Part shown: positions 1 to 10,036 of the stretch, in pieces | How positions within the stretch are numbered: position 1 is the first letter of the stretch | Layout: each line of letters begins with the position of its first letter | From: Acidimicrobiaceae bacterium | Lineage (GTDB): Bacteria > Actinomycetota > Acidimicrobiia > Acidimicrobiales > MedAcidi-G1 | Length of the DNA stretch: 10,036 nt | Direction of reading: 5' to 3' | NCBI GenBank assembly: GCA_002699725.1 | Contig: PACE01000001.1 | Location: forward strand, 1 to 10,036 | Notes under the pieces: generated by a model | Seen by the model: the letters and a program-made list of their open reading frames with translations, nothing else | Database searches by the model: none | What the model was told of the DNA's origin: nothing | Position numbers and translations under genes: made by a program

Positions 1-1002
1 CGAAGTCGACGGGGATCACGTCCACGGTGCCTTCGGGACGCCGGGGAACTCCTTCAACAGGCCGCGGGCGTAGGAGATGATGACCGGCTCGGCCATCCGG
101 AAGCCCCTGATCCACCCGGGCGACGGTTCCGAGTGGGCTGACTCGATGATGGCTGGCCGCACGACGCTGATGGGCACGTCGCCGGCACTCTCAGCGACGG
201 CGATCTCTCCGAGCGCCTTCGTGAAGGCGTAGGCGTCGGGGAAGCCCAGTGAGCCAGCCCGGGCAATTCCGGCCTGGGCCATCTTGTCGTCGACCCATCG
301 GCAGCGGAGCTGTTCGGTCTTGGCTGCGAGGCTGGGGATCCCGGCGGCGCCCAGCTCGCCGTGCGCCTCGCTCCGGAAGGCCTTCAGGTTCGCCGGCGTT
401 CGGCTCTCGGTCTCGGTGTCCAGTCGGATCCGTCGGGCGGCGTCCACCTCCGTGCGCCAGTCCACGTCCACGAAGAACGAGCTGGCGTCGACCGGTTCCT
501 CGGGGGCCCTTCCACGTCGGCTTCCCGCTACGTAGCAGGTCGAGACGGTGACAAGGTGGGGGGTCGCACCCAGGCTCGCCAGCGTCTCGACGATCCTGAC
601 CGGTCCGAGCAGGTTCACCTCGACGGCCTGGTCCAGGGGCGAGTCGAAGCTCACGACGGCGGCTGAGTGGATGACGATGTCGCAGGAGGCGAGGGCTGCC
701 AGCCCGTCGGCGTCCAGTCCCAGGCTGTCGCTGGTGACGTCCCCGGCCACGGCGGTGATCCGACGTGAGGTCATCTCGGCGAAGCCGTCGGTTCCCAACT
801 GGCTGCGCAGGTTGTCGAAGGCGTCGTTGCGGAGGATGTCGCGTTCGACGCGTCGGCCGGCCCCGCGACGGCCCGGTCTGAGGATCAGCACCAGCTCACA
901 GCCGGGGGCGGAGCGGAGCAGGCGTTCGACCAGGGCGGTGCCCAGGAAGCCGGTGCTTCCGGTGATGGCGATGCGGCGCCCTGCCAGATTCTCGGGTATC
1001 AC
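1..1002 (-). CDS. Fatty acyl-CoA reductase-type SDR oxidoreductase, 3'-partial, apparent frameshift
   Basis: This is the N-terminal Rossmann part of an extended SDR of the male-sterility / fatty acyl-CoA reductase type (NAD_binding_4), which reduces acyl thioesters with NAD(P)H. Seen directly: the nucleotide-binding motif TGSTGFLG at residues 14-21, SAAVVSF at 113-119, STCYVAG at 154-160, the catalytic pair Y258/K262 in YAFTK, and VRPAII at 281-286. The frame hits TGA at 16-18 just after GVPKAPWT. In the next frame the sequence continues as GTVDVIPVDF, which is how this family normally proceeds, so one base appears to be missing near 35-41 and the gene really continues off the window. The start is GTG at 1000-1002; an ATG 8 bp upstream is out of frame. 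It diverges from a TetR gene that may regulate it. Whether the full protein carries further domains cannot be seen. The family call is firm; the exact substrate is unknown. Confidence 0.82.
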
Positions 1003-1013
1003 ACCGCCATGTC

Positions 1014-1045
1014 TACCAGATGGTCAGGGCCCTTACCAGATGGTA
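1014..1045. promoter_or_regulatory. Two direct copies of a TACC-N4-GGT(A) site: putative TetR operator pair
   Basis: TACCAGATGGT occurs at 1014-1024 and again at 1034-1044, exactly 20 bp apart. Each copy is an inverted half-site pair (TACC/GGTA) around AGAT, perfect in the second copy and lacking the last base in the first. The pair lies between the divergent reductase and TetR genes. The left copy overlaps the possible -10 of the reductase and the right copy sits just upstream of the TetR -10. This is the usual position of a TetR-family autoregulatory operator. Binding is inferred, not shown. Confidence 0.55.
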
Positions 1046-1056
1046 GACAGGTGGGC

Positions 1057-1062
1057 TACGGT
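1057..1062 (+). promoter_or_regulatory. Leaderless -10 element (TACGGT) of the TetR gene
   Basis: TACGGT matches the actinobacterial TANNNT -10 consensus. It ends 6 nt before the GTG at 1069, so transcription would begin at or next to the start codon. No Shine-Dalgarno is visible. This supports GTG 1069 over the upstream ATG at 1009, which would place the operator repeats inside the coding region. Confidence 0.5.
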
Positions 1063-1068
1063 GGCCCG

Positions 1069-1677
1069 GTGGCATCTACCGAGGTCCGTGGGGGTACGAA
1101 GGCACGGGTGCTTGACGCAGCCCTGGCGTCCTTCGGCACGGCCGGCTTCGCCGGCACCTCGCTAGACGACCTGGCTTCCGGGCTGGGAATCCGCAAGCAG
1201 ACGATCCTCTACCACTTCGTCTCCAAGCGGGGTCTGCTGAACGCAGTGGTGGACAGCGTCGCCGCCGACCTCATCCTCGCTCTCGAACAGGTGCTCGCCG
1301 GGAGCCAGCGGGACTGGGAACGCGTGGAGGCGTTGGTGCGGTCGGTGTTCCGCGTGGCCCTCGAACAACCGGTCCTGCTCGGGCTGCTACGTGAGGTGAG
1401 CCGCCCCAACTCACCCGGAGCCCAGCGCCTGCGGGGCCACATGGATCCGCTCATGGCCAGGGCCCGCCTCTGGATCGAGGCCGAGATGGCCGCAGGACGC
1501 ATGCGCAGGACCGACGCCCAGCTGCTGCTCCTGAGCGCGTACTCCACGGTGGTCGGCGTAGCCACGGAGATCGAGGTGCTCCGGGCTGCCGGCGTAGGGC
1601 CGACCCTGCGGCCAGTGGTCCAGAGGCGGAGGGAACTCCTGCGGTTCCTGCGGGCCTCGTTGGACCCGACGTCCTGA
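1069..1677 (+). CDS. TetR/AcrR-family transcriptional regulator
   Basis: This is a one-component DNA-binding regulator of 202 residues, typical for TetR proteins. The N-terminal helix-turn-helix covers about residues 12-58, with the characteristic pattern of TSLDDLASGLGIRKQTILYH followed by F and K. The rest is an all-helical ligand-binding and dimerisation domain, ending in a basic stretch. An ATG at 1009 would add 20 residues, but GTG 1069 is preferred because it follows a TANNNT element by 6 nt and leaves the repeat pair 1014-1045 in non-coding DNA. The gene diverges from the acyl-CoA reductase-like gene, so it is probably a repressor of that gene and of itself, perhaps sensing an acyl-CoA or lipid. 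The ligand is inference. Its stop codon is only 9 bp from the end of the convergent ddl gene, leaving no room for a separate terminator. Confidence 0.88.
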   Translation: MASTEVRGGTKARVLDAALASFGTAGFAGTSLDDLASGLGIRKQTILYHFVSKRGLLNAVVDSVAADLILALEQVLAGSQRDWERVEALVRSVFRVALEQPVLLGLLREVSRPNSPGAQRLRGHMDPLMARARLWIEAEMAAGRMRRTDAQLLLLSAYSTVVGVATEIEVLRAAGVGPTLRPVVQRRRELLRFLRASLDPTS

Positions 1678-1686
1678 GCAGGGCCG

Positions 1687-2778
1687 TCAGCGCGTCGTGT
1701 TGCGCCGGCGGCGGGCGTGGCGCTCGACGGCGAGGTCCACGAGCTGGTCGATGAGACCGCCGTACGACAGCCCCGCCTTCAACCAGAGCCGTGGGTACAT
1801 GGATATGGAGGTGAACCCCGGGATCGTGTTGACCTCGTTCACCAACATCCGGCCGTCGTCGGCGAGGAAGAAATCGACCCGGGCCATACCGGAACACCTC
1901 AGGGCGATGAAGGCCCGTGCGGCGAGTTCCTGGAAGCCGACCACGGTTTCAGGGTCAAGGTCGGGATCGTTGATGAGCTCGGCCGCGTCGGTCTCGTACT
2001 TGTCGGCGTAGCTGTAGAAGGCATCGCCGGGCCTGATCTCTCCGGGACCGGAAACCTGGGGCACCCTGTCGCCGAGGACGGCCAACTCGATCTCGCGCCC
2101 TGACACGGCCTCCTCCACCACGATCCACTCGTCGTAGCCGGCGGCAGTCGCCAGGGCGATCTCCAGCGAGGCCGGATCGGAGGCCTGCGACACCCCGACC
2201 GAGGAGCCCAGGTTGGCCGGCTTCACGAACACTGAGGGTCCCAGGTCGGCGAGCAGTTCCTCGAGCAGGGCACGGTGGCCGGCGGAACCCGGTTCGTCCA
2301 GACGGTCGGCGTGGAGTCCCCGGTACCTGGCCTGGGGGATCCCGTGGTGGGCGAGGACCTCCCGGGCTGCCAGCTTGTCCATGGCCAGCGCCGAACCCAG
2401 CACCCCACTGCCGACATACGGCACGTCGGCCAGCTCGAGGAGGCCCTGCAGGGTTCCGTCCTCCCCGAGGGGACCATGGACGAGGGGGAACACCGCGACC
2501 GGACCGTCGGCGGCCAGTTCCGTGAGGCGGGGGAGGGGATCCCAGGATGGCCCGCTCGGATCGAGGCGGTCTCCGAGGCCCTCCATCCGGCCCTCGGCGA
2601 GGGCCGCCGCGGCATCGGCGGCCAGCGACCAGCATCCATCCAGGCCGATGCCGACGGGGACCACCTCGTAGTGCCCGGTGTCCACCGCCGCCAGCACGTG
2701 TCGGGCTGACATGCATGACACGTCGTGCTCGGCACTACGCCCCCCGAAGAGCACGACGAGACGACGGCGGGCGACCAC
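1687..2778 (-). CDS. ddl: D-alanine--D-alanine ligase
   Basis: This is an ATP-grasp ligase that joins two D-alanines in the cytoplasm for peptidoglycan synthesis. At 363 residues it is of the longer DdlA/VanA-like length. Visible motifs are GGRSAEHDVS (12-21, with the Glu that holds the first D-Ala), HGPLGEDG (101-108), YVGSGVLGSALAMDK (121-135), FVKPANLGSSVGV (184-196), the omega-loop FYSYADKY with K260-Y261, and the Mg ligands D302, E315 and N317 in VDFF and NEVNTIPGFT. Tyr in the omega loop fits D-Ala-D-Ala rather than D-Ala-D-lactate ligases. The start is GTG 2776-2778, with TACGAT 6 nt upstream and no Shine-Dalgarno. It is divergent from murF, whose product uses the dipeptide. The ddl-murF neighbourhood is also known in Bacillus subtilis, but there the two genes point the same way. 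Confidence 0.96.
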   Translation of the reverse strand: MVARRRLVVLFGGRSAEHDVSCMSARHVLAAVDTGHYEVVPVGIGLDGCWSLAADAAAALAEGRMEGLGDRLDPSGPSWDPLPRLTELAADGPVAVFPLVHGPLGEDGTLQGLLELADVPYVGSGVLGSALAMDKLAAREVLAHHGIPQARYRGLHADRLDEPGSAGHRALLEELLADLGPSVFVKPANLGSSVGVSQASDPASLEIALATAAGYDEWIVVEEAVSGREIELAVLGDRVPQVSGPGEIRPGDAFYSYADKYETDAAELINDPDLDPETVVGFQELAARAFIALRCSGMARVDFFLADDGRMLVNEVNTIPGFTSISMYPRLWLKAGLSYGGLIDQLVDLAVERHARRRRNTTR

Positions 2779-2784
2779 CCCGGC

Positions 2785-2790
2785 ATCGTA
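2785..2790 (-). promoter_or_regulatory. Leaderless -10 element (TACGAT) of ddl
   Basis: On the minus strand TACGAT is followed by 6 nt and then the ddl GTG. It fits TANNNT and no Shine-Dalgarno is present. Its upstream two bases (2789-2790) are shared with the oppositely oriented murF -10. Confidence 0.55.
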
Positions 2791-2794
2791 GGGT
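2789..2794 (+). promoter_or_regulatory. Leaderless -10 element (TAGGGT) of murF
   Basis: TAGGGT is followed by 8 nt and then the murF GTG at 2803. No Shine-Dalgarno is visible in the 24-bp spacer between the two genes. It overlaps the divergent ddl -10 by two bases. Confidence 0.5.
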
Positions 2795-2802
2795 GACGCT
2801 CC

Positions 2803-4113
2803 GTGAGGTTTCGGGCATCAGAGGTCGCCGCAGCGGTCGGTGGCGAGTTGGTCGGCGACGACGTGACCCTGGACGGCGCCACGCAGGACTCCCGTGCCGT
2901 CACGCCCGGCTGTCTGTTCGTACCCCTGGTGGCCGATCGGGACGGCCACGGGTTCATCGACGGGGCAATGGCCGGCGGTGCCGGAGCGCATCTGACCTCC
3001 GGTGCCATCGGCGCTGGAACGGCGATACGGGTACCTGACACGGCCGTGGCACTGTGCGACCTCGGATCAGCAGCGCGGGCATCGACTACCGCCCGGGTGG
3101 TGGCCGTGACCGGAAGCGTCGGCAAGACCTCGGTCAAGGACCTGACTGCAGCCGTCATCTCGAAGGGTGGTTCCACGCATGCCTCCGAACGTTCGTTCAA
3201 CAACGAGATCGGGGTTCCGCTGAGCATCCTCGGAGCCCCCGAGGATGTCGACTTCCTGGTGCTGGAGATGGGTGCCCGGGCCGAGGGCGACATAGCCCGG
3301 CTGGCCGGGATAGCCCGGCCCGACGTGGGGGTCGTCACCACGGTCGACATGGCCCATACCTCGGCGTTCGGATCCCTGGAGGTGGTGGCACGCACCAAGG
3401 GCGAGCTGCTGGACGGCCTTCCGCCCGACGGGTGTGCGGTGCTCAACGCCGACGACGACCTCGTGATGGGCCAGGCGGGGCGAGCCAGATGTCCGATCCT
3501 CACATTCGGCGAGCGCGGTGAGGTACGTGCGCGCGTTGTCAGCCTGGACGATCTTCTCCGTCCGGCATTCCGCCTGGAGTCGCCATGGGGCCGGACGGAG
3601 GTCCGCCTTGATGTGCACGGTGCCCACATGGTTTCCAACGCGCTTGCAGCCGCAGCCGTGGGACTCTTCCTGGGGCTGTCGCCCGAGGAGGTGGCGGCCG
3701 GCCTCTCCGAGGCCCGACTGTCACCGTGGCGGATGGAGGTGGCGACGGCGCCGAGTGGACTGGTCGTCGTCAACGACGCCTACAACGCCAACCCTGCATC
3801 CATGGCCGCCGGGCTCGAAGCCCTTGCCTCCCTCGCCGTGTCGGGCCGCAGGATCGCCGTGGTCGGGCTCATGGCCGAACTCGGCGGGTACGAGGCAACC
3901 GCACACTCGGAGGTCGCCGATCTGGCCGACGGGTTCGGAGTCGACCTGCTGGCCGTGGGCACCGACCTGTATGGCGTGGCGCAGTTGGCCGGCATCGACG
4001 AGGCATCCGCCCACCTTGCTGGCCTGGCGCTGGGTGACGGAGATGCCGTGCTGGTGAAGGGCAGCCGGGTGGCCGGCCTGGAGGCGCTGGCGGCCCGGCT
4101 CCTCGAAGGCTGA
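2803..4113 (+). CDS. murF: UDP-N-acetylmuramoyl-tripeptide--D-alanyl-D-alanine ligase
   Basis: This is the last cytoplasmic ligase of the peptidoglycan precursor pathway. It adds D-Ala-D-Ala to UDP-MurNAc-tripeptide with ATP. At 436 residues it is slightly shorter than the E. coli enzyme. The three-domain order is visible. The N-terminal UDP-binding domain includes SRAVTPGCLFVPL (30-42). The central ATPase domain has the P-loop GSVGKTS (104-110), SFNNEIGVPL (131-140), EMGAR (155-159), AHTSAFGS (184-191) and K199, at the usual position of the carbamylated lysine. The C-terminal domain has DAYNANP (325-331), GLMAELG (355-361) and VLVKGSR (417-423). The start is GTG 2803, chosen from the family N-terminus and the promoter 8 nt upstream. 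It is divergent from ddl and stands alone rather than inside a dcw-type murE-murF-mraY run; no other mur gene lies in this window. Confidence 0.95.
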   Translation: MRFRASEVAAAVGGELVGDDVTLDGATQDSRAVTPGCLFVPLVADRDGHGFIDGAMAGGAGAHLTSGAIGAGTAIRVPDTAVALCDLGSAARASTTARVVAVTGSVGKTSVKDLTAAVISKGGSTHASERSFNNEIGVPLSILGAPEDVDFLVLEMGARAEGDIARLAGIARPDVGVVTTVDMAHTSAFGSLEVVARTKGELLDGLPPDGCAVLNADDDLVMGQAGRARCPILTFGERGEVRARVVSLDDLLRPAFRLESPWGRTEVRLDVHGAHMVSNALAAAAVGLFLGLSPEEVAAGLSEARLSPWRMEVATAPSGLVVVNDAYNANPASMAAGLEALASLAVSGRRIAVVGLMAELGGYEATAHSEVADLADGFGVDLLAVGTDLYGVAQLAGIDEASAHLAGLALGDGDAVLVKGSRVAGLEALAARLLEG

Positions 4114-4118
4114 TCCCG

Positions 4119-4153
4119 CCGGCAGCGCCGCAGCCGGCCTGCCGGAGCGGCGC
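4119..4153. terminator. GC-rich compound hairpin between convergent genes
   Basis: CCGGCAG (4119-4125) can pair with CTGCCGG (4139-4145), and GCGCCGC (4125-4131) with GCGGCGC (4147-4153). The two stems are interleaved, so they are alternative or pseudoknot-forming. The structure starts just after the murF stop and lies before the end of the convergent zinc-ribbon gene. There is no U-tract, so a terminator role is only suggested by position. Confidence 0.3.
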
Positions 4154-4175
4154 CTGAAGCCGGTCTGGAACCGTC

Positions 4176-4508
4176 TCAGTCCGGGTCGTGGGGGAGCTCC
4201 GTCGGGCGGAGCGGGGTGTTGGAGCGGTTCCAGACGGCGAGTCGTTCGGTGTCGCAGTCCGGGCAGAGGTGCACGACCCGCAGGGACTGGATGGAGAGTT
4301 GGGTTCCCCTCGACTTCTCCACGATCGACTGGAGGGCGGGTCGCACGGCGTCTGATCCACAGGTCGGACACCTGGGGGTTAGGTCCCTTTCCCATTCCAG
4401 GTCGCACGACCCGCAGGTCACGGTGATCGTCTCGTCGCCGGGCGGCCCTTCCCGTCGTCCGAGGAGGGACTCCTCCTCGCCACAGCGCGGGCAGGCGATG
4501 TTGCTCAT
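4176..4508 (-). CDS. Hypothetical four-CxxC zinc-ribbon protein
   Basis: This 110-residue soluble protein has four CxxC pairs at C6/C9, C32/C35, C47/C50 and C82/C85, enough for two zinc ribbons. The spacings suggest one ribbon from the first two pairs and another from the last two, but other pairings are possible. The C-terminal tail is proline- and acid-rich. No enzyme motif is recognised, so a nucleic-acid- or protein-binding role is only a guess. The frame can also open at GTG 4514, but TAGCGT at 4516-4521 stands 7 nt from ATG 4508, which favours the ATG start. It converges with murF and diverges from the J-domain gene. Confidence 0.72.
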   Translation of the reverse strand: MSNIACPRCGEEESLLGRREGPPGDETITVTCGSCDLEWERDLTPRCPTCGSDAVRPALQSIVEKSRGTQLSIQSLRVVHLCPDCDTERLAVWNRSNTPLRPTELPHDPD

Positions 4509-4515
4509 GTCCACA

Positions 4516-4521
4516 ACGCTA
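4516..4521 (-). promoter_or_regulatory. Leaderless -10 element (TAGCGT) of the zinc-ribbon gene
   Basis: On the minus strand TAGCGT is followed by 7 nt and then ATG 4508. It matches TANNNT, there is no Shine-Dalgarno, and it sets the start choice for this gene. Confidence 0.45.
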
Positions 4522-4590
4522 GGCGGATCGACAGCGCAGCCCGTGGGGTACCGGCTTCCCGGGGCGGGCGAGTGGGCCGGTACCCGCCCA

Positions 4591-4596
4591 TAGGGT
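4591..4596 (+). promoter_or_regulatory. Leaderless -10 element (TAGGGT) of the J-domain gene
   Basis: TAGGGT is followed by GGACGG and then GTG 4603. The spacing is 6 nt, identical to that of the TetR and ddl genes, with no purine-rich ribosome binding site. Confidence 0.55.
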
Positions 4597-4602
4597 GGAC
4601 GG

Positions 4603-5217
4603 GTGCCCGGCCACGGCGACGACCACTATCGGACCCTCGGGGTGTCGATGACGGCATCGGACGAGCAGGTCCGTGCCGCCTACCGGGTGCAGGCCCGTCG
4701 CCACCACCCGGACCTCTCCGACGGCCCGGCGGACCGTAGGCAGGCCGAGGCCGCGATGGCGTCGGTCAACGAGGCATGGAGGGTCCTGGGTGACCGGGGC
4801 CGCCGCTCCGTCTACGACCTGGCCCGGAGGCCGCCGGAGCCGGTGGTCCGCACGTCACCGGTCGATGAAGCGGTACACGGGCGGCGGGGAGACTCCTTCC
4901 AGGCGATTCCCGTACCGCGGGCGGTCGGGTGCCTGCTCCAGTTCGGACCGGTGGTCCTCATCGTGGGGCTGCTGGTCGGGATTCTGGTGGCCACCGCCTT
5001 CATGGGTGGAGGCCGCGAGCTGGCGCCGAGGCTGGGACCCGGATCCTGTGTCGAGCTGTCGTCGACGATCCGGGTGGTGCCGTGCACCGTGGAGACCCCG
5101 GTCATCGTGGCGCGTGGGGTTGCCGGGACTCCGTGCCCGCTGGGGTCGGTGACCCTGGTCCTGCCGACCCTGATCGAGCAGGTCTGCGTGGCTCCTCCGG
5201 GGACGCCGTCGGGCTGA
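4603..5217 (+). CDS. Membrane-anchored J-domain (DnaJ-like) protein with external cysteine domain
   Basis: Residues 7-73 form a J-domain, DHYRTLGV through to YDLARR, with the HPD motif at 35-37 that stimulates DnaK ATPase activity. There is no Gly/Phe region or DnaJ zinc finger, so this is a specialised J-protein rather than DnaJ itself. A single hydrophobic segment at about 110-134 should be a transmembrane helix. It leaves the J-domain in the cytoplasm and a tail of about 70 residues outside. That tail has four cysteines (149, 161, 178, 195), which could form two disulfides. The GTG start follows TAGGGT by 6 nt. The next gene begins 8-35 bp downstream, depending on its start. The domain call is secure; partner and substrate are unknown. 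Confidence 0.85.
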   Translation: MPGHGDDHYRTLGVSMTASDEQVRAAYRVQARRHHPDLSDGPADRRQAEAAMASVNEAWRVLGDRGRRSVYDLARRPPEPVVRTSPVDEAVHGRRGDSFQAIPVPRAVGCLLQFGPVVLIVGLLVGILVATAFMGGGRELAPRLGPGSCVELSSTIRVVPCTVETPVIVARGVAGTPCPLGSVTLVLPTLIEQVCVAPPGTPSG

Positions 5218-5237
5218 CCGCCCTGTGGCTGGACGTA

Positions 5238-5243
5238 TACGGT
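5238..5243 (+). promoter_or_regulatory. Possible -10 element (TACGGT) of the ureidoglycolate lyase-like gene
   Basis: TACGGT matches TANNNT and ends 8 nt before the in-frame GTG at 5252. It supports 5252 over the earlier GTG at 5225 as the start. It is weaker than the other examples because the gene could instead be co-transcribed with the J-domain gene. Confidence 0.35.
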
Positions 5244-5251
5244 CCTGCGGC

Positions 5252-5859
5252 GTGGCTGGCAATGGCGTCGATCTCGTTGAGGTACCGGTCCTGCAGGGCA
5301 CGCCAGAGGCACTCGACGGCTACGGCTACACCTTTGACGACCCGGCCGAGGTCCAGGTGGAGATCGTGCGGTGGCCCGCCGGTGGGTGGCGCCCGGTCGA
5401 CCCGGACACCGGCGATGAGGGCGGCACGGTGGAAGGCGTGTTCGACGCCTTCTGGGAGGGTTCCACCCTCCGGGCGCTCAACAGCGCGGTGGACGGCGAC
5501 TACCTGCTGGCCGAGGCGGCCGGACCGCCGCTGGACGGCGAGCCGTGGTTGGCGGGCTTCACCATCGGGCACCTGAACTACCACCCGGACGGCGGCCAGC
5601 TCTTCTTCACGTTGGATCCGGGGGCGTTCGTGGTCCCGCTGGCCCTGCCAGGCGACGGCATCACACCGGCCGACGTGGTGGCCTTCTGGTTCGACGGAAC
5701 GCAGGGTCTCTGCATCCATCCGGAGATCTGGCACAGGGCGTGTTCCCGCTCGTGCCCCGCCAGCGGTTCCTGGACCGTCAGGGCCGGGTGCATGCCCGGG
5801 TGAGCGTGGAGTTAGCCGACGAGTTCGGTTGCCGACTGTTGATCCCGGGGACCCTCTGA
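5252..5859 (+). CDS. Ureidoglycolate lyase-like (AllA-family cupin) gene, apparent frameshift
   Basis: The family releases urea from ureidoglycolate in purine (allantoin) breakdown and has a cupin-like fold. The sequence shows YHPDGGQLFF, PGAFVVPLALPG, VVAFWFDGTQGL and IHPEIWH, parallel to the HPLGTQAF, FVVVVA and YHRNVWHHPL blocks of E. coli AllA as I recall it. After IWH the frame turns to non-family sequence and stops at 5801-5803. The neighbouring frame continues sensibly as QGVFPLVPRQRFLDRQGRVH to a stop at 5857-5859. One base appears to be lost near 5732-5736 (CACAGG where CACCAGG is expected). Restoring it gives a 202-residue protein. The start at GTG 5252 gives a family-like N-terminus; GTG 5225 would add 9 residues. 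The gene is a pseudogene if the frameshift is real, and intact if it is a sequence error. No other allantoin gene is nearby, so the true substrate is uncertain. Confidence 0.75.
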
Positions 5860-5912
5860 GGAGGGCGTGGCGGGTGGAGGCCCATGTGCCGCCAGTATCC
5901 TCGTGCGCCAGC

Positions 5913-5986
5913 GGACCGTTAGCTCAGTTGGCTAGAGCGCTCGCCTCACACGCGAGAGGTCACTGGTTCGAGTCCAGTACGGTCCA
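5913..5986 (+). tRNA. tRNA-Val (anticodon CAC)
   Basis: The full cloverleaf can be folded. The acceptor stem GGACCGT/ACGGTCC is perfect, with discriminator A at 5986. The D-stem is GCTC/GAGC, the anticodon stem CTCGC/GCGAG with loop CTCACAC (anticodon CAC, reading GTG), the variable loop is AGGTC, and the T-stem is ACTGG/CCAGT with loop TTCGAGT. The 3' CCA is not encoded (CTA follows). Its 3' portion is repeated at 8240-8299, which marks it as an integration site. Confidence 0.97.
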
Positions 5987-5987
5987 C
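5928..5987 (+). repeat. Left direct repeat (att-like) inside tRNA-Val
   Basis: This stretch, from the D-loop to one base past the tRNA end, matches 8240-8299 with two mismatches in 60 bp. The part from 5942 to 5987 is identical over 46 bp. It covers the anticodon and T arms, the usual crossover region for tyrosine-recombinase islands. Confidence 0.85.
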
Positions 5988-6042
5988 TATTTCCTGTATT
6001 TGTTTGTTGCAGGTACTGGTCGGGTTGACCGTCGGTCGGCGA

Positions 6043-6071
6043 CTCACCTCCCGCTTGGAGGGAGAAGTGAG
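6043..6071 (+). promoter_or_regulatory. Leader hairpin overlapping a possible ribosome binding site
   Basis: CTCAC-CTCCC (6043-6052) pairs with GGGAG (6060-6064) and GTGAG (6067-6071), with a 7-nt loop and a 2-nt bulge. The 3' arm contains the purine run GGAGGGAG (6057-6064) just before GTG 6067, so folding would hide both the ribosome binding site and that start. It lies in the 155-nt leader (5987-6141) of the homocysteine methyltransferase gene. No known riboswitch consensus is recognised here. Confidence 0.4.
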
Positions 6072-6141
6072 TGGACACGAAGGTGCTTGGGTGTCAGTGG
6101 CGGTTAGCCTCCACCGACTTTCTGCTGATTGTGAGCTCATT

Positions 6142-7029
6142 GTGAAACCACCGATCCTCCTTGATGGCGGTATGGGTCAGGAGTTGATCCGTCGAGGGGC
6201 TAACCGCAAATCCGACATGTGGGCAGCCTGGGCCCTGGTCCACGACCCCGAGTTGGTCACCGCAGTCCACACTGATTACATCGCTGCCGGGGCGGACGTA
6301 CTCACCACCAACACCTACCACACTTCTGTTGACCGCCTTGAATATGTCGGCTTCGGAGACCGGACCGAGGAACTCACCCGTCTGGCTGGTCGGCTGGCCC
6401 GAGAGGTGGCCGACAACGCCGACCATGACGTGATGGTTGCCGCATCGCTGCCACCCCTCCGCCACAGCTACAACCCGGATCCCGACGCCACCTACGAAGA
6501 ACTCCTAGACGAGTACAGCGAGATGGTCGGGTACCTGGCCGAGAGTGTCGACTTGTTCCTGCCCGAGACCATGGGAACGTTGATTGAGGCCCAAGCAGCC
6601 GTAGATGCCGCCCGCGAATCTGGTCGAACAGTGTGGGTCTCGTTCACCCTCCAGGGATCACCTGGCCCCCATCTGCTCGATGGCACGTCGTTCGCTGAAG
6701 CCGTCGCATCGATCGACGCCGACGCTTACCTAATCAACTGTTGTCCCCCTGAAGAGATCTCTAATGCCCTCCCGATCCTCCGGGCGGTGACCAATCGCCC
6801 CGTTGGGGTGTACGCCAATGGGTTCCGCGAGATGTCTTTGGGCTACCGGCGGCGGGAGGGAGACCCTCTGCCGTCTGCACGTACCGACATGGGAACGGAT
6901 CGCTATGCGCAAATAGTGCTGGAGTGGGTAGACGCGGGAGCCGACATAGTCGGCGGGTGCTGTGAGATCGGTCCTGGCCACATCGCTCGGATCCGCCAAG
7001 TGCTATCCCAGCCATATTCCGACCTCTAG
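6142..7029 (+). CDS. Homocysteine S-methyltransferase family protein
   Basis: This is a zinc-dependent (beta/alpha)8-barrel methyltransferase of the MmuM/BHMT family, which moves a methyl group from a donor such as S-methylmethionine or betaine to homocysteine. Counting from GTG 6142 it has 295 residues, close to the usual length. Visible motifs are ILLDGGMGQEL (5-15), TTNTYHT (55-61), PET (141-143), INCC with C200 (zinc ligand), and VGGCC with C273/C274 (remaining zinc ligands). The frame is open back to 6004. GTG 6142 is chosen because the family starts just before the LLDGG strand. GTG 6067 has a much better ribosome binding site and would add 25 residues, so the start is not settled. It lies in the island downstream of tRNA-Val and 15 bp before the HAD gene, apparently one operon. 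The donor cannot be read from the sequence. Confidence 0.85.
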   Translation: MKPPILLDGGMGQELIRRGANRKSDMWAAWALVHDPELVTAVHTDYIAAGADVLTTNTYHTSVDRLEYVGFGDRTEELTRLAGRLAREVADNADHDVMVAASLPPLRHSYNPDPDATYEELLDEYSEMVGYLAESVDLFLPETMGTLIEAQAAVDAARESGRTVWVSFTLQGSPGPHLLDGTSFAEAVASIDADAYLINCCPPEEISNALPILRAVTNRPVGVYANGFREMSLGYRRREGDPLPSARTDMGTDRYAQIVLEWVDAGADIVGGCCEIGPGHIARIRQVLSQPYSDL

Positions 7030-7032
7030 GAG
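7028..7032 (+). promoter_or_regulatory. Ribosome binding site AGGAG for the HAD gene
   Basis: AGGAG overlaps the stop codon of the upstream gene and lies 12 nt from ATG 7045, slightly far. Together with the family N-terminus it supports ATG 7045 over the internal GTG at 7090. Confidence 0.45.
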
Positions 7033-7044
7033 TCCTTAACCAGC

Positions 7045-7890
7045 ATGGTTTCCCCAGATTTCGTCTACAGCCGTAGTTATCGCGGGAGCGTGAAGGCAGT
7101 CATCCTCGACTGGAGCGGGACCACCGCTGACGCCTATGTCATAGCTCCCGCGGTCGTATTCGTAGAGGTGTTTTCCAGGCACGGCGTCGAGATCTCAATG
7201 GAGGAGGCCCGGGGACCGATGGGCTTGCGTAAGGACCTCCACATCAAGGCTCTCACCGAAGATCCCACGATACGGGAGCGGTGGAAGGGCGTTCACGGCA
7301 GATATCCGGACCAGTCCGATGTCGACACGATGTTCGAGGATTTTGTACCGCTGCAGCTGGAATGCCTGCCCAAATACACCACGTTGTTGCCGGACGTAGC
7401 CGAGGTAACGACCAAACTGCAGGCCGACGGTATCAAGATCGGGTCAAGCACCGGTTTTACACGGCCAATGGTCGATATCTTGGAATCAGCGGCCAAGAAG
7501 CAGGGCTACGAGCCGGATGCTTCCGTCGCAGGGGATGAGGTGATCCACGGAGCGCGGCCAAAGCCGTTCATGGTGTATCGCAACCTCGACCTTTTGGATG
7601 TTCATCCCATTCAGTCGGTGGTGAAGGTCGATGACACGGTGAGCGGAGTCGGGGAAGCGCTCGAAGCTGGATGTTGGGGTGTCGGCATCGCTCGCTATTC
7701 GAACTACATGAACGTCAACTCGCTCGAAGAGATCGATCAGCTCACTGACGATGACATTGCACGGCGCCTTGTCCATACTCGAGACCTGCTTGGCAAAGCA
7801 GGGGCTCACTATGTCATCGATGGCTTCGGCGAACTCCTCGATGTCATCGACGACATCAACTCCCGCCTCAAGAGAGGCGAGCGCCCCTGA
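7045..7890 (+). CDS. Phosphonoacetaldehyde hydrolase-like HAD protein
   Basis: Phosphonatase (PhnX) splits phosphonoacetaldehyde into acetaldehyde and phosphate through a Schiff base and an aspartyl-phosphate. This 281-residue protein keeps the key residues: nucleophile D22 in LDWSGTT (21-27), the Schiff-base lysine K63 in MGLRKDLH (59-66) with H66, GSSTG (133-137), the arginine of ARPKP (R171), and D197 in KVDDT (194-198). Compared with B. cereus PhnX as I recall it, DWAGTT is DWSGTT, GYTR is GFTR and AGRPYPW is GARPKPF, so substrate preference may have shifted. The N-terminus FVYSRSYRG before KAVILDW and the C-terminal RGERP are common in this family, which supports ATG 7045. It follows the methyltransferase gene by 15 bp in the tRNA-Val island. 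No PhnW transaminase gene is nearby. Confidence 0.86.
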   Translation: MVSPDFVYSRSYRGSVKAVILDWSGTTADAYVIAPAVVFVEVFSRHGVEISMEEARGPMGLRKDLHIKALTEDPTIRERWKGVHGRYPDQSDVDTMFEDFVPLQLECLPKYTTLLPDVAEVTTKLQADGIKIGSSTGFTRPMVDILESAAKKQGYEPDASVAGDEVIHGARPKPFMVYRNLDLLDVHPIQSVVKVDDTVSGVGEALEAGCWGVGIARYSNYMNVNSLEEIDQLTDDDIARRLVHTRDLLGKAGAHYVIDGFGELLDVIDDINSRLKRGERP

Positions 7891-8073
7891 GAACTCTGCC
7901 ACACCCACCTCGTCAGTCAGGTCGACACTGACCAGGTCGACACTGACGTTGAAATCACCGTCACCAGCTGGGCCAAGAATACCGGCGGCTTCGACGACAA
8001 GACGATCCGAGACGTGACCGAAAACGCCCGGACACTCAAGTTCGACGACGGCTCAGGATTCAGCGACAGTTAA
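7891..8073 (+). pseudogene. C-terminal gene remnant, possibly of a DUF499-type ATPase
   Basis: Directly after the HAD stop codon the same frame stays open to TAA 8071-8073 but has no credible start. It reads VDTDVEITVTSW, then GGFDDKTIRDVTENARTLKF, then DDGSGFSDS. This resembles, from memory, the C-terminal tail of large DUF499-family P-loop ATPases associated with phage-defence and modification loci (strand with alternating hydrophobics, ENARTLKF, final GF and acidic residues). It looks like a 3' stub left by a deletion. The family assignment needs a profile search; that it is a protein remnant is more secure than its identity. Confidence 0.42.
7918..7947 (+). repeat. 15-bp tandem duplication
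   Basis: CAGGTCGACACTGAC occurs twice head to tail (7918-7932 and 7933-7947) at the 5' edge of the gene remnant. It is in frame, encoding QVDTD twice. It may mark the scar where the rest of the gene was lost. Confidence 0.7.
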
Positions 8074-8077
8074 CTTA

Positions 8078-8093
8078 CCGTTCCGAGGAACGG
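8078..8093. repeat. Inverted repeat CCGTTCC-GA-GGAACGG
   Basis: Two 7-bp arms around 2 bp lie 5 bp after the remnant's stop codon. The 2-nt centre is too tight for a good hairpin, so a protein-binding dyad is as likely as a terminator. Confidence 0.5.
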
Positions 8094-8124
8094 GGAGGGG
8101 ACTGTGGCTGGTTACGCCGTTTCT

Positions 8125-8140
8125 GTTATCCCGGGATAAC
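8125..8140. repeat. Perfect 16-bp palindrome GTTATCCCGGGATAAC
   Basis: The sequence is identical to its own reverse complement over 16 bp and lies in the non-coding island tail, about 100 bp before the right tRNA copy. A dimeric protein-binding site, for example for an island regulator or recombination factor, is a reasonable guess. Confidence 0.6.
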
Positions 8141-8239
8141 TCGAAGACGAGTGAACTGACCTCCCGCTTAGGCCACTACCCGCTGTCACTGACCGGGCGT
8201 ATTCTGCGGAACGACAACGAGGTAGTTGCCGACACGGAA

Positions 8240-8298
8240 TTGGCTAGAGGGCCCGCCTCACACGCGAGAGGTCACTGGTTCGAGTCCAGTACGGTCCA
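8240..8298 (+). pseudogene. Truncated tRNA-Val copy (right att-like repeat)
   Basis: This copy begins within the D-loop sequence and runs to the discriminator base. It lacks the 5' acceptor strand and the 5' half of the D arm. The anticodon loop, variable loop, T arm and 3' acceptor strand (8254-8298) are identical to tRNA-Val. Mismatches at 8250 and 8253 break the D-stem and anticodon-stem pairing, so it cannot be a functional tRNA. The match runs one base past the discriminator, to 8299. It is the expected displaced end of an integrated element. Confidence 0.85.
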
Positions 8299-8299
8299 C

Positions 8300-8389
8300 A
8301 AAAAGACCTCTTGACCTGCGCGTATCTACACCGAAGGCGTTGTTGGCGCCCATCGACCCGTCAGGAAATGGCGAAACAGATAATTCTGC
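8300..8389. other. Intergenic stretch right of the island
   Basis: No gene or strong structure is seen. It holds a copy of GTATCTACACC (8322-8332) that recurs at 8893-8903 on the other side of the following gene. Confidence 0.4.
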
Positions 8390-8809
8390 TCAGGAGGGCA
8401 CCTTCCGCCTGACCTCAGCAATAAGAACAGTGCCGGCTAGAACCACCACAAGCCACAATACGGCGACGTTCCAGGCATCTTGGGCAGTTGACAGGCCTTC
8501 ACCGGGATGTTGAAGGTGGAAGACAGCGTGCGGCAGGGAGAAGGCCAAATAGCCAACCGTGGCGATGACCGTGATGTCGCGGCGGAGGCACAGCCCTGCT
8601 ATCAGTACTAGCAGTCCGGTAGCGAGGAGCCCGGAACCGGTGTCGGAAACAAGATGCTCGTTAAAGGGTGGCAGTGCCGACACCACTCTTGGAGACCAAC
8701 CGGGGAAGTTCTCGTACCAGTTCGCTGGAGAGAACACGGCCCAGCACCCTGACAGGATGTTCGGCACAGCGAGGCCGATCAGGATCAACCGTTTCCAGTT
8801 CCGTGACAC
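8390..8809 (-). CDS. Hypothetical four-helix membrane protein
   Basis: This 139-residue protein has four hydrophobic segments, roughly LILIGLAVPNILSGCWAVF, GSGLLATGLLVLIAGLCL, VIATVGYLAFSLPHAVFHL and VAVLWLVVVLAGTVLIAEV. The N-terminus is short and basic, and a longer polar loop (about 35 residues, containing PPFNEHLVSDTGSG) separates helices 1 and 2. The frame opens further up at GTG 8845, but AGGAGG at 8818-8823 stands 8 nt before GTG 8809, which decides the start. No family is recognised with confidence and the function is unknown. It lies just right of the island and diverges from the sugar dehydrogenase gene. Confidence 0.75.
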   Translation of the reverse strand: MSRNWKRLILIGLAVPNILSGCWAVFSPANWYENFPGWSPRVVSALPPFNEHLVSDTGSGLLATGLLVLIAGLCLRRDITVIATVGYLAFSLPHAVFHLQHPGEGLSTAQDAWNVAVLWLVVVLAGTVLIAEVRRKVPS

Positions 8810-8817
8810 GTCTCTCT

Positions 8818-8823
8818 CCTCCT
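8818..8823 (-). promoter_or_regulatory. Shine-Dalgarno AGGAGG of the membrane protein gene
   Basis: A perfect AGGAGG lies 8 nt before GTG 8809 on the minus strand. It fixes the start and contrasts with the leaderless starts of the left half of the window. Confidence 0.75.
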
Positions 8824-8956
8824 GTTGGTCCTCAATTGGTAGCACTGCGTTAACACCACAGTCTCGCGAAAGGCCCTACAACCCGGCTGTGGGTATCTAC
8901 ACCCAGGGCGCCTGACGTCGCTCGCCCACTGCACGGGAGGGGTGACAGACTCGGGC

Positions 8957-10036
8957 GTGAGGAAGTACGCGGTTGTACTGACGTTCCTGCTGGTGGCGTC
9001 AGCGTGTAGCAACGGTATGGAAACCACCACTACAGCGGCTCCCATCACGGCGCCCGTACCACCGGCGCCGGTCGTGGCCACGCTCATAGGTCAGGCCGAC
9101 CAACCGATGGCCATGGTCAACCGGCCCAACAGTGACGGGTTCTTCCTCGCCGAGCGGGAGGGACGGATCCGGACGGGCGACATCAGCGGGAACGGGTCCC
9201 TGATCGTCGGCGAGACAGTGCTCGATCTCACCGAGTGGATCACCACCACCGGCGAAGGTGGCCTGCTCGGACTGACTATCTCGAAGACCGGTCACGAACT
9301 CTTTGTTAACTACACGGGAACCGACTGGGTCAGCCGGGTCTCCGCGTACCCGCTCGTGGATGGTCGCCCTGTCACCGGAAAGGAGGGCGGGCGACCGCTG
9401 TTGGAAGTAGCCCAGCCCTTCTCAAACCACAACGGCGGTCATCTCCTAATCGACGGTGACGGCCACCTACTGGTCGGCTTCGGTGACGGAGGGCTGGCAG
9501 GGGACCCTTGGGGGCACGGTCAAGATACGTCCACGCTGCTCGGCGCCATCCTGAGGATCAACCCTACGGCTGTTGACGGTAGGCCCTATCAGATACCGCT
9601 AGACAACCCGTTCGTCGACGATCACTCAGGCACCCGTCCGGAGATCCTTGCCTACGGACTGAGGAACCCATGGCGGTTCGACTTGGATCCGTCAACCGGC
9701 GACCTCTGGATCGCTGACGTCGGACAGGACCACTTTGAAGAGATCGACTTCCTCCCGGCGGTCCACTACACGGTAGGTGCTGACTTCGGGTGGAAGTTCA
9801 TGGAGGGAACACGGGAGTTCGCCGGCTCGGCCAACGACGGCCACCGAATCCCGGTCCACGAGTACTTCCACGGGAATGACGGTCGCTGCTCAATCATCGG
9901 AGGGGTCATCGTCCGGGCCGGGAACCTGGAGGGACTTGATGGAGCGTTCCTCTACAGCGACTTCTGCGATGGCCGGATCCGAGCGCTCCTCCCCGACGGC
10001 AGCGACTGGGCCGACCACGATCTAGGGGCGGTCGTC
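8957..10036 (+). CDS. PQQ-dependent sugar dehydrogenase (GSDH family) lipoprotein, 3'-partial
   Basis: This is a six-bladed beta-propeller soluble aldose/sorbosone dehydrogenase-type protein, of a family that oxidises sugars with PQQ outside the cytoplasm. The first residues VRKYAVVLTFLLVASAC are a lipoprotein signal with C17 as the probable lipidated cysteine. A Thr/Pro/Ala-rich linker follows (about 21-33). Family motifs seen are HNGGH (158-162), GFGDGG (174-179), GAILRINP, GLRNPWRF (234-241), LWIADVGQDHFEEID and DFGWKFMEG. The window holds 360 codons with no stop, so the C-terminus (perhaps the last blade) is missing. GTG 8957 is chosen because it gives a clean signal peptide; the in-frame GTG 8942 is too close to its purine run. 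Some members of the family lack PQQ activity, so the substrate is unknown. Confidence 0.88.
   Translation, partial: MRKYAVVLTFLLVASACSNGMETTTTAAPITAPVPPAPVVATLIGQADQPMAMVNRPNSDGFFLAEREGRIRTGDISGNGSLIVGETVLDLTEWITTTGEGGLLGLTISKTGHELFVNYTGTDWVSRVSAYPLVDGRPVTGKEGGRPLLEVAQPFSNHNGGHLLIDGDGHLLVGFGDGGLAGDPWGHGQDTSTLLGAILRINPTAVDGRPYQIPLDNPFVDDHSGTRPEILAYGLRNPWRFDLDPSTGDLWIADVGQDHFEEIDFLPAVHYTVGADFGWKFMEGTREFAGSANDGHRIPVHEYFHGNDGRCSIIGGVIVRAGNLEGLDGAFLYSDFCDGRIRALLPDGSDWADHDLGAVV

Follow-up and report, generated by a model that had tools for sequence, protein, structure and literature searches.

A 2.3-kb integrase-less island at a tRNA-Val gene in an uncultured marine-type actinobacterium, probably mobilized in trans

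Here, we describe a small genomic island inserted at a tRNA-Val(CAC) gene of an Acidimicrobiaceae bacterium. The sequence analyzed (hereafter the window) is the entire contig C62, 10,036 bp in length, from a 63-contig genome of a marine-type actinobacterial lineage, and the island is a piece of foreign DNA of 2.3 kb with two metabolic genes. An intact tRNA-Val(CAC) gene is located on the forward strand at 5913-5987, and a copy of its 3' part, which represents the putative right attachment (att) copy, is located on the same strand at 8240-8299. These form a 60-nt direct repeat (5928-5987 and 8240-8299; 97% identity; start-to-start spacing of 2,312) with two mismatches (5938/8250 and 5941/8253), and the last 46 nt of the tRNA gene (5942-5987, the left copy of the identical core) are repeated exactly at 8254-8299. 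Repeat analysis and alignment therefore confirmed what an earlier note had read from the sequence alone, namely, a 60-bp repeat with 46 identical bp that brackets 2,312 bp. Because the other direct-repeat families in the window, as judged from the 20 largest of 25, do not exceed 31 nt and are only ~67-83% identical, a chance origin of the 60-nt repeat was rejected. Due to the repeat, the edges of the inserted segment are ambiguous; it may be given as 5988-8299 or, equally, as 5928-8239, with no strand assigned.

Two metabolic genes and the remnant of a third gene are found within the island, all on the forward strand. The first gene (6142-7029; inferred GTG start, with the longest frame from 6004) belongs to the homocysteine S-methyltransferase family (PF02574; E = 3.6e-65), and its product scores below the equivalog cut-offs of NCBIfam. 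The second (7045-7890) encodes phosphonoacetaldehyde hydrolase (PhnX), an assignment that passed the curated cut-off of TIGR01422 (291.4 bits; cut-off 220). The third (7891-8073) is the C-terminal remnant of an HmaC-type AAA+ ATPase for anti-phage defense (PADLOC HmaC; E = 3.4e-6; profile positions 893-936 of 941), for which no Pfam match was found. The PhnX protein is 76-79% identical to proteins from metagenome-assembled genomes (MAGs) titled Kiloniellaceae, Phycisphaeraceae, and Verrucomicrobia, and only 67-68% identical to those of genus g6 in its own family. A metabolic operon had been proposed for the two complete genes, and this was not upheld. The methyltransferase gene occurs at one of the 80 named PhnX loci, namely, the one on a contig of genome G005 that is described below, and at 0 of the other 79 loci in the flanks fetched, some of which were short; a conserved methyltransferase-PhnX operon was thus rejected. 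A phage origin was also rejected, as the viral collection contained no exact match of the tRNA core and, by the patterns used, no PhnX relative.

The insertion itself is evident from an empty site in a related genome, G066. In this genome, which belongs to another genus, tRNA-Val is joined directly to DNA with 94.9% identity to window 8240-9007. When the island is omitted, the flanks of the window align unbroken to G066 with 95.2% identity over 805 bp, and the 2,312-bp segment is absent. The island is real and is inserted at the tRNA gene. Duplication within a tRNA array, which the earlier note named as an outcome that would overturn its reading, was rejected because ARAGORN never found more than one tRNA-Val per locus (among 21 loci, 19 with one and two with none). 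The features expected of a tRNA-integrated genomic island are a tRNA gene with a direct repeat of its 3' end and an empty site in a close relative, both of which are present, and an integrase of its own, which is usual but not required and which the island lacks. In agreement with the earlier note, the Phage_integrase profile (PF00589), the one recombinase family covered by profile search, has no match on contig C62. The description of the island as lower in GC holds for its left edge, where GC content drops from ~0.70 to 0.57-0.62. On the right, a GC content of 0.57-0.64 persists beyond 8299 without a rise, and so this boundary is not marked by GC.

The contig that carries the island most likely does not belong to the genome in which it was binned. 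The gene order of window 1-5196 is repeated on contig C22 of the same genome, with 66-77% DNA identity and its own tRNA-Val. MurF of C62 shares 68% identity with its counterpart on C22, 65-69% with the MurF proteins of the five other genomes of the genus, and 99% with that of G066; at the DNA level, C62 and G066 share 99.25% identity across the 5.2-kb left flank. Since C62 matches G066 at 99% and C22 already carries the ortholog of the genus, C62 most likely derives from a close relative of G066 and was misbinned. Misbinning leaves the island itself untouched. It also means that integrases found elsewhere in the bin say little about the island.

The same cargo is found at a different tRNA gene in another genus. 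Window 6029-8076, for which no strand is assigned, shares 98.4% DNA identity (33 differences in 2,048) with contig 1 of G005, and the MurF proteins of the window contig and G005 are only 68% identical. The cargo has therefore moved between genera, and between tRNA genes, recently. Both metabolic genes are full-length open frames in the window and in G005. In G005, the cargo is flanked by two 46-nt copies (98% identity) of the 3' end of tRNA-Met that lie 3,551 bp apart; the second copy is at the contig end and is read by Rfam as a cut-off tRNA. This genome also encodes an integrase, the gene of which lies beside an intact tRNA-Met that shares the 46-nt core. An IS3-like transposase frame (named by eye) adjoins the right end of the shared stretch in G005. 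In genome G002, a homolog of the left flank of this tRNA-Met island is found on contig C6 and a tRNA-Met-like match on a different contig, C5, so that G002 did not yield an established empty site for the G005 island.

Parts of the island ends are shared with an island of different cargo. In G018, which represents a third genus, a 2,113-bp segment lies between tRNA-Val and its 3' copy, and its cargo includes a PAP2-like gene (named by eye). Common to the two islands are a left-end hairpin (6042-6078, forward strand; 37 bp, 94.6% identity) and a right arm (8153-8235, forward strand; 83 bp, 88% identity). A 17-mer is present in both of these ends (6042-6058 and 8155-8171) with two mismatches between the copies; the best of 200 shuffled pairs had three. 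Next to the tRNA copy in G070, the sequence aligns to part of the right arm, of which BLAST recovered only 19 bp (E = 0.062). The left ends of G018, G025, G017, and contig C22 (from genome G000) resemble each other over the first ~60 bp. These shared ends could be candidate binding sites of an integrase that acts in trans; common descent is another possible source of the similarity. The island ends fold only slightly better than shuffled sequences (z = -1.1 and -1.4). Known RNAs were rejected for the ends, since a scan of seven sources returned only tRNA matches at gathering score (including the 3' copy in G018), and in a permissive scan of window 5880-9000 the matches other than the tRNA numbered four, all below the family cut-offs.

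Integrase genes with PF00589 are found in 36 of the 48 family genomes. Among these, G067 has an integrase of 376 aa between two complete tRNA-Pro copies that are ~3.3 kb apart (L135 7987-11345), and this mini-island carries one cargo gene, a lipoprotein-like member of the PF00144 family, in addition to the integrase. In G068, the MurF of which is 91% identical to that of the window, integrase pieces lie ~0.9-1.5 kb after tRNA-Val. They match the G067 integrase with 60% (159 aa) and 70% (57 aa) identity, and the intervening part is missing.

Taken together, these patterns suggest that the segment is probably a non-autonomous cassette with att copies and no recombinase, integrated site-specifically by a recombinase, most likely a tyrosine recombinase, that acted in trans. 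A circular 2,312-bp molecule with the tRNA-Val 3' core would have recombined with tRNA-Val(CAC) at its 3' end, so that the tRNA gene stayed intact on the left and the displaced 3' copy came to lie on the right. The tyrosine recombinase may have come from another element integrated at a tRNA gene, either an island or a phage, and may read the conserved sequences just inside each end. This reading is supported by the empty site in G066, the tRNA-Met copy in G005, the partly shared ends of G018, the portion of the right arm in G070, and the 17-mer. Further support comes from the integrase-bearing tRNA-Pro mini-island of G067. The suggestion of the earlier note that an integrase elsewhere could still mobilize the island is plausible, given the ends partly shared with G018 and the cargo of G005 between tRNA-Met repeats with an integrase at the same core. 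An integrase for tRNA-Val(CAC), which the note proposed to look for elsewhere in the genome, was not found above cut-off on the contigs with a core match.

Several observations weigh against mobilization in trans. PF00589 has no match above cut-off on the contig holding the tRNA-Val(CAC) core match in any of the 29 genomes with such a match, many of these contigs stopping soon after the tRNA, and the only integrase sequences after tRNA-Val are the pieces in G068. The right end of the island (8077-8239), queried in 48 genomes, was recovered solely in G018 if a short, weak match in G009 (E = 0.003) is set aside. The 17-mer was spotted first and tested afterward, and the left hairpin may be the terminator of the tRNA. 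The part shared with G005 begins 41 bp inside the island and not at the core, and the content of the G005 island also differs. Finally, the methyltransferase genes of the window and G005 differ by 11 nonsynonymous and 3 synonymous changes (7 and 4, respectively, for PhnX). The methyltransferase thus shows no sign of constraint since the transfer, and these differences are too few for a conclusion.

Decay is the main rival explanation. An integrase-bearing island at tRNA-Val may have lost its integrase and most of its content, such that the two genes no longer move and the segment is a cis-mobilizable element (CIME) in the strict sense. The truncated end of the defense gene within the island, the integrase pieces at tRNA-Val in the sister genome G068, and the methyltransferase without sign of constraint are all consistent with such a history. 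However, the metabolic genes have kept full-length open frames in both the window and G005, the cargo moved between genera recently, as its 98.4% identity indicates, and a second integrase-less island (that of G018) shares the ends. We consider decay possible but somewhat unlikely.

The position downstream of tRNA-Val(CAC) is a hotspot in this family, with 0 to ~6 kb of mosaic content. Intact tRNA-Val was found at 21 of the 24 loci examined. In G069 and G013, the conserved backbone begins at most ~50 bp from tRNA-Val, and in other genomes ~1.7 to 6 kb of variable DNA separates the two, and other content at this site, for which the earlier note suggested looking, is found in relatives. Additional ungapped 3' copies downstream of tRNA-Val are present at three of the 21 loci (the window, G066 with two, and G018 with two), and G067 has a gapped one; several contigs stop soon after tRNA-Val, such that this count is a lower bound. 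This locus has the hallmark of an additive flexible genomic island, namely, variable cassettes at one tRNA gene with content that differs among relatives. The segment that follows the island in the window contains a membrane-protein frame (8390-8845, reverse strand) without Pfam or NCBIfam match; this frame is also found close after tRNA-Val in G066, G002, and G008, where the right-flank segment is 74% (G002) and 70% (G008) identical. In G066, two tRNA-Val 3' copies flank a cold-shock protein gene (L069 2407-2960), and related DNA follows tRNA-Val in G067, in G071, and on contig C22 of G000. Just upstream of tRNA-Val, the window has a second insertion (5221-5894), as relatives aligning on both sides skip ~670 bp. 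This insertion contains a gene that resembles ureidoglycolate lyase (PF04115; E = 1.8e-7) with a split frame, and protein relatives of it were found in six other genomes of 61, all in genus g3.

A short repeat recurs at cassette junctions in these hotspots. Its core, the 12-mer CGTATCTACACC, heads an element of ~60 bp and occurs 51 times in the 48 family genomes (22 of which have it), a strong enrichment given that the reversed pattern occurs twice. In the window, the core is found outside the island in the neighboring segment (8321-8332, forward strand), with a second copy that has one mismatch at 8892-8903 (forward strand), and the repeat was also seen at loci L069, L076, L077, L089, and L134-L164. 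Among 1,339 collapsed ends of homology blocks between the fetched loci, 32 lie within 12 bp of the 12-mer, compared with a mean of 4.5 (maximum 12) in 1,000 local-shift controls. This control is stricter than a rotation control, which was too lenient because the repeats sit in variable regions, and is itself limited in that a conserved repeat alone can make alignments stop at its edges. In one example, the G029 copy at +3049 joins a block ending at the G025 copy at +2539 to a block starting at the G025 copy at +5597. For 39 of the 69 copies with at most one mismatch, a block end falls within 25 bp; for the other 30, none is that close. In the window, homology to G066 reaches 9007, ~115 bp past the start of the 8892 copy, so the junction is not exactly at the 12-mer; beyond it, the genes differ, with a GSDH-family gene in the window and another gene in G066.

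Regarding genomic context, 20 of the 51 exact 12-mer sites are within 5 kb of an intact tRNA gene, one more is near a partial tRNA call, and 30 have no tRNA within 5 kb on the fetched stretch; this closeness to tRNA genes is biased because the 12-mer was chosen in tRNA-Val hotspots and then counted. Six of the 51 sites are within 4 kb of a PF00589 match. A structured RNA was rejected for the repeat, with a weak signal of only four predicted pairs, one of which has a double change. A closely similar leader (GTGAGGAAGTACGCGGTT and the like) follows the repeat and starts different hotspot genes (window 8957-9010, L069 4805-4858, and L089 ~3350-3400), as if one promoter-and-signal-peptide unit had been joined to different genes. 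Rather than a recombination site, the 12-mer element may represent a promoter-leader unit shared by many cassette genes.

This mosaic structure bears on a further rival, homologous recombination, in which a DNA fragment with tRNA-Val and its downstream segment, received by natural transformation or transduction, was exchanged via the tRNA gene and the right flank, with the latest step requiring no site-specific recombinase. The hotspot mosaic and the homology blocks that end at the repeated element are in line with such exchange, but homologous recombination alone leaves unexplained both the tRNA 3' copy at the end of the segment and the presence of this cargo between tRNA-Met repeats in G005, and we regard this explanation as quite improbable. 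An assembly artefact, in which DNA from more than one organism was joined at the tRNA repeat, is highly improbable, since, despite a short and probably misbinned contig and a G005 contig that stops inside its tRNA repeat, one relative (G066) has the two flanks and the tRNA arranged as in the window, and G005 has an independent tRNA-bounded copy of the cargo.

If mobilization in trans and the junction repeat are considered together, these Acidimicrobiia might have a clade-specific cassette system, an idea that we put forward as doubtful. Short modules in tRNA-associated hotspots would be swapped at the ~60-bp element, and att-bounded, integrase-less modules with conserved ends, the window island among them, would be loaded in trans into tRNA genes by a few tyrosine recombinases, which would place the same cargo at different tRNAs. 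Phosphorus often limits growth in the sea. The cargo is plausibly a transferable metabolic trait for the use of phosphonate phosphorus and of methyl or sulfur groups, with a presumed benefit to the host, and the island places a phosphonate-degradation gene on a transferable unit. It is also a clean case, in uncultured actinobacteria, of a gene cassette that lacks an integrase: the site is empty in a relative, another genus has a second copy at a different tRNA, and an island of other cargo shares its ends. Sites at which a trans-acting integrase might bind and the candidate exchange repeat are both testable, and the repeat at the cassette junctions of hotspots is the most novel lead.

Small integrase-less tRNA islands are already described, including in the same class, and the window island adds another; the shared ends and the junction repeat were not found in the open-access library searched, where the letters of the 12-mer turn up in five papers with titles on unrelated topics. 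For marine Acidimicrobiales, the MedAcidi-G1 section of a paper on deep-sea adaptation describes an 11-kb nitrate-reductase island, and the words integrase and cassette are absent from its text (PMC10205998). A close likeness is with 'Ca. Actinomarinales', apparently also of the class Acidimicrobiia, in which small cassettes at tRNA direct repeats show evidence of transfer between genera and no identifiable mobile genetic elements were reported in the passages on them (PMC7771536). Unlike the window island, those cassettes have been described for the most part within an envelope-sugar island that holds five tRNAs, and the same passages make no mention of shared cassette ends or of identical cargo at two different tRNAs (PMC7771536). 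The ssrA islands of Dehalococcoides likewise lie between an RNA gene and a repeat of its 3' end, occur in tandem, include 15 without integration genes, and show conservation of a 15-bp motif that precedes the repeat; they have been discussed as cis-mobilizable elements (PMC3146451). However, these islands target tmRNA, are larger, and belong to a family whose recombinase is Ccr-like (related to those of SCCmec) and not of the PF00589 type (PMC3146451). CIMEs are decay products of integrative and conjugative elements (ICEs) or integrative and mobilizable elements (IMEs) that are mobile in cis by accretion (PMC5704250). Like a CIME, the window island keeps putative attL and attR copies without integration or transfer genes, but a decay origin from an ICE or IME would here be marked only by the defense-gene remnant inside and the integrase pieces in the G068 hotspot. 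As in additive flexible islands, such as that of Methylophilaceae with recurring tRNA-Lys 3' repeats, variable content follows a tRNA gene with recurring 3' repeats; tycheposons, in contrast, are 4-200 kb and carry a tyrosine recombinase, whereas the window island is 2.3 kb and has none (PMC10872708). An integron-like nature was considered for the hotspot repeat alone, which shows only four predicted pairs. The reliance of the island on an integrase in trans that we propose resembles that of clusters of attC sites lacking integrases (CALINs) and other 'hitchers', which are also integrase-less cassettes; CALINs use attC sites (PMC11389934).

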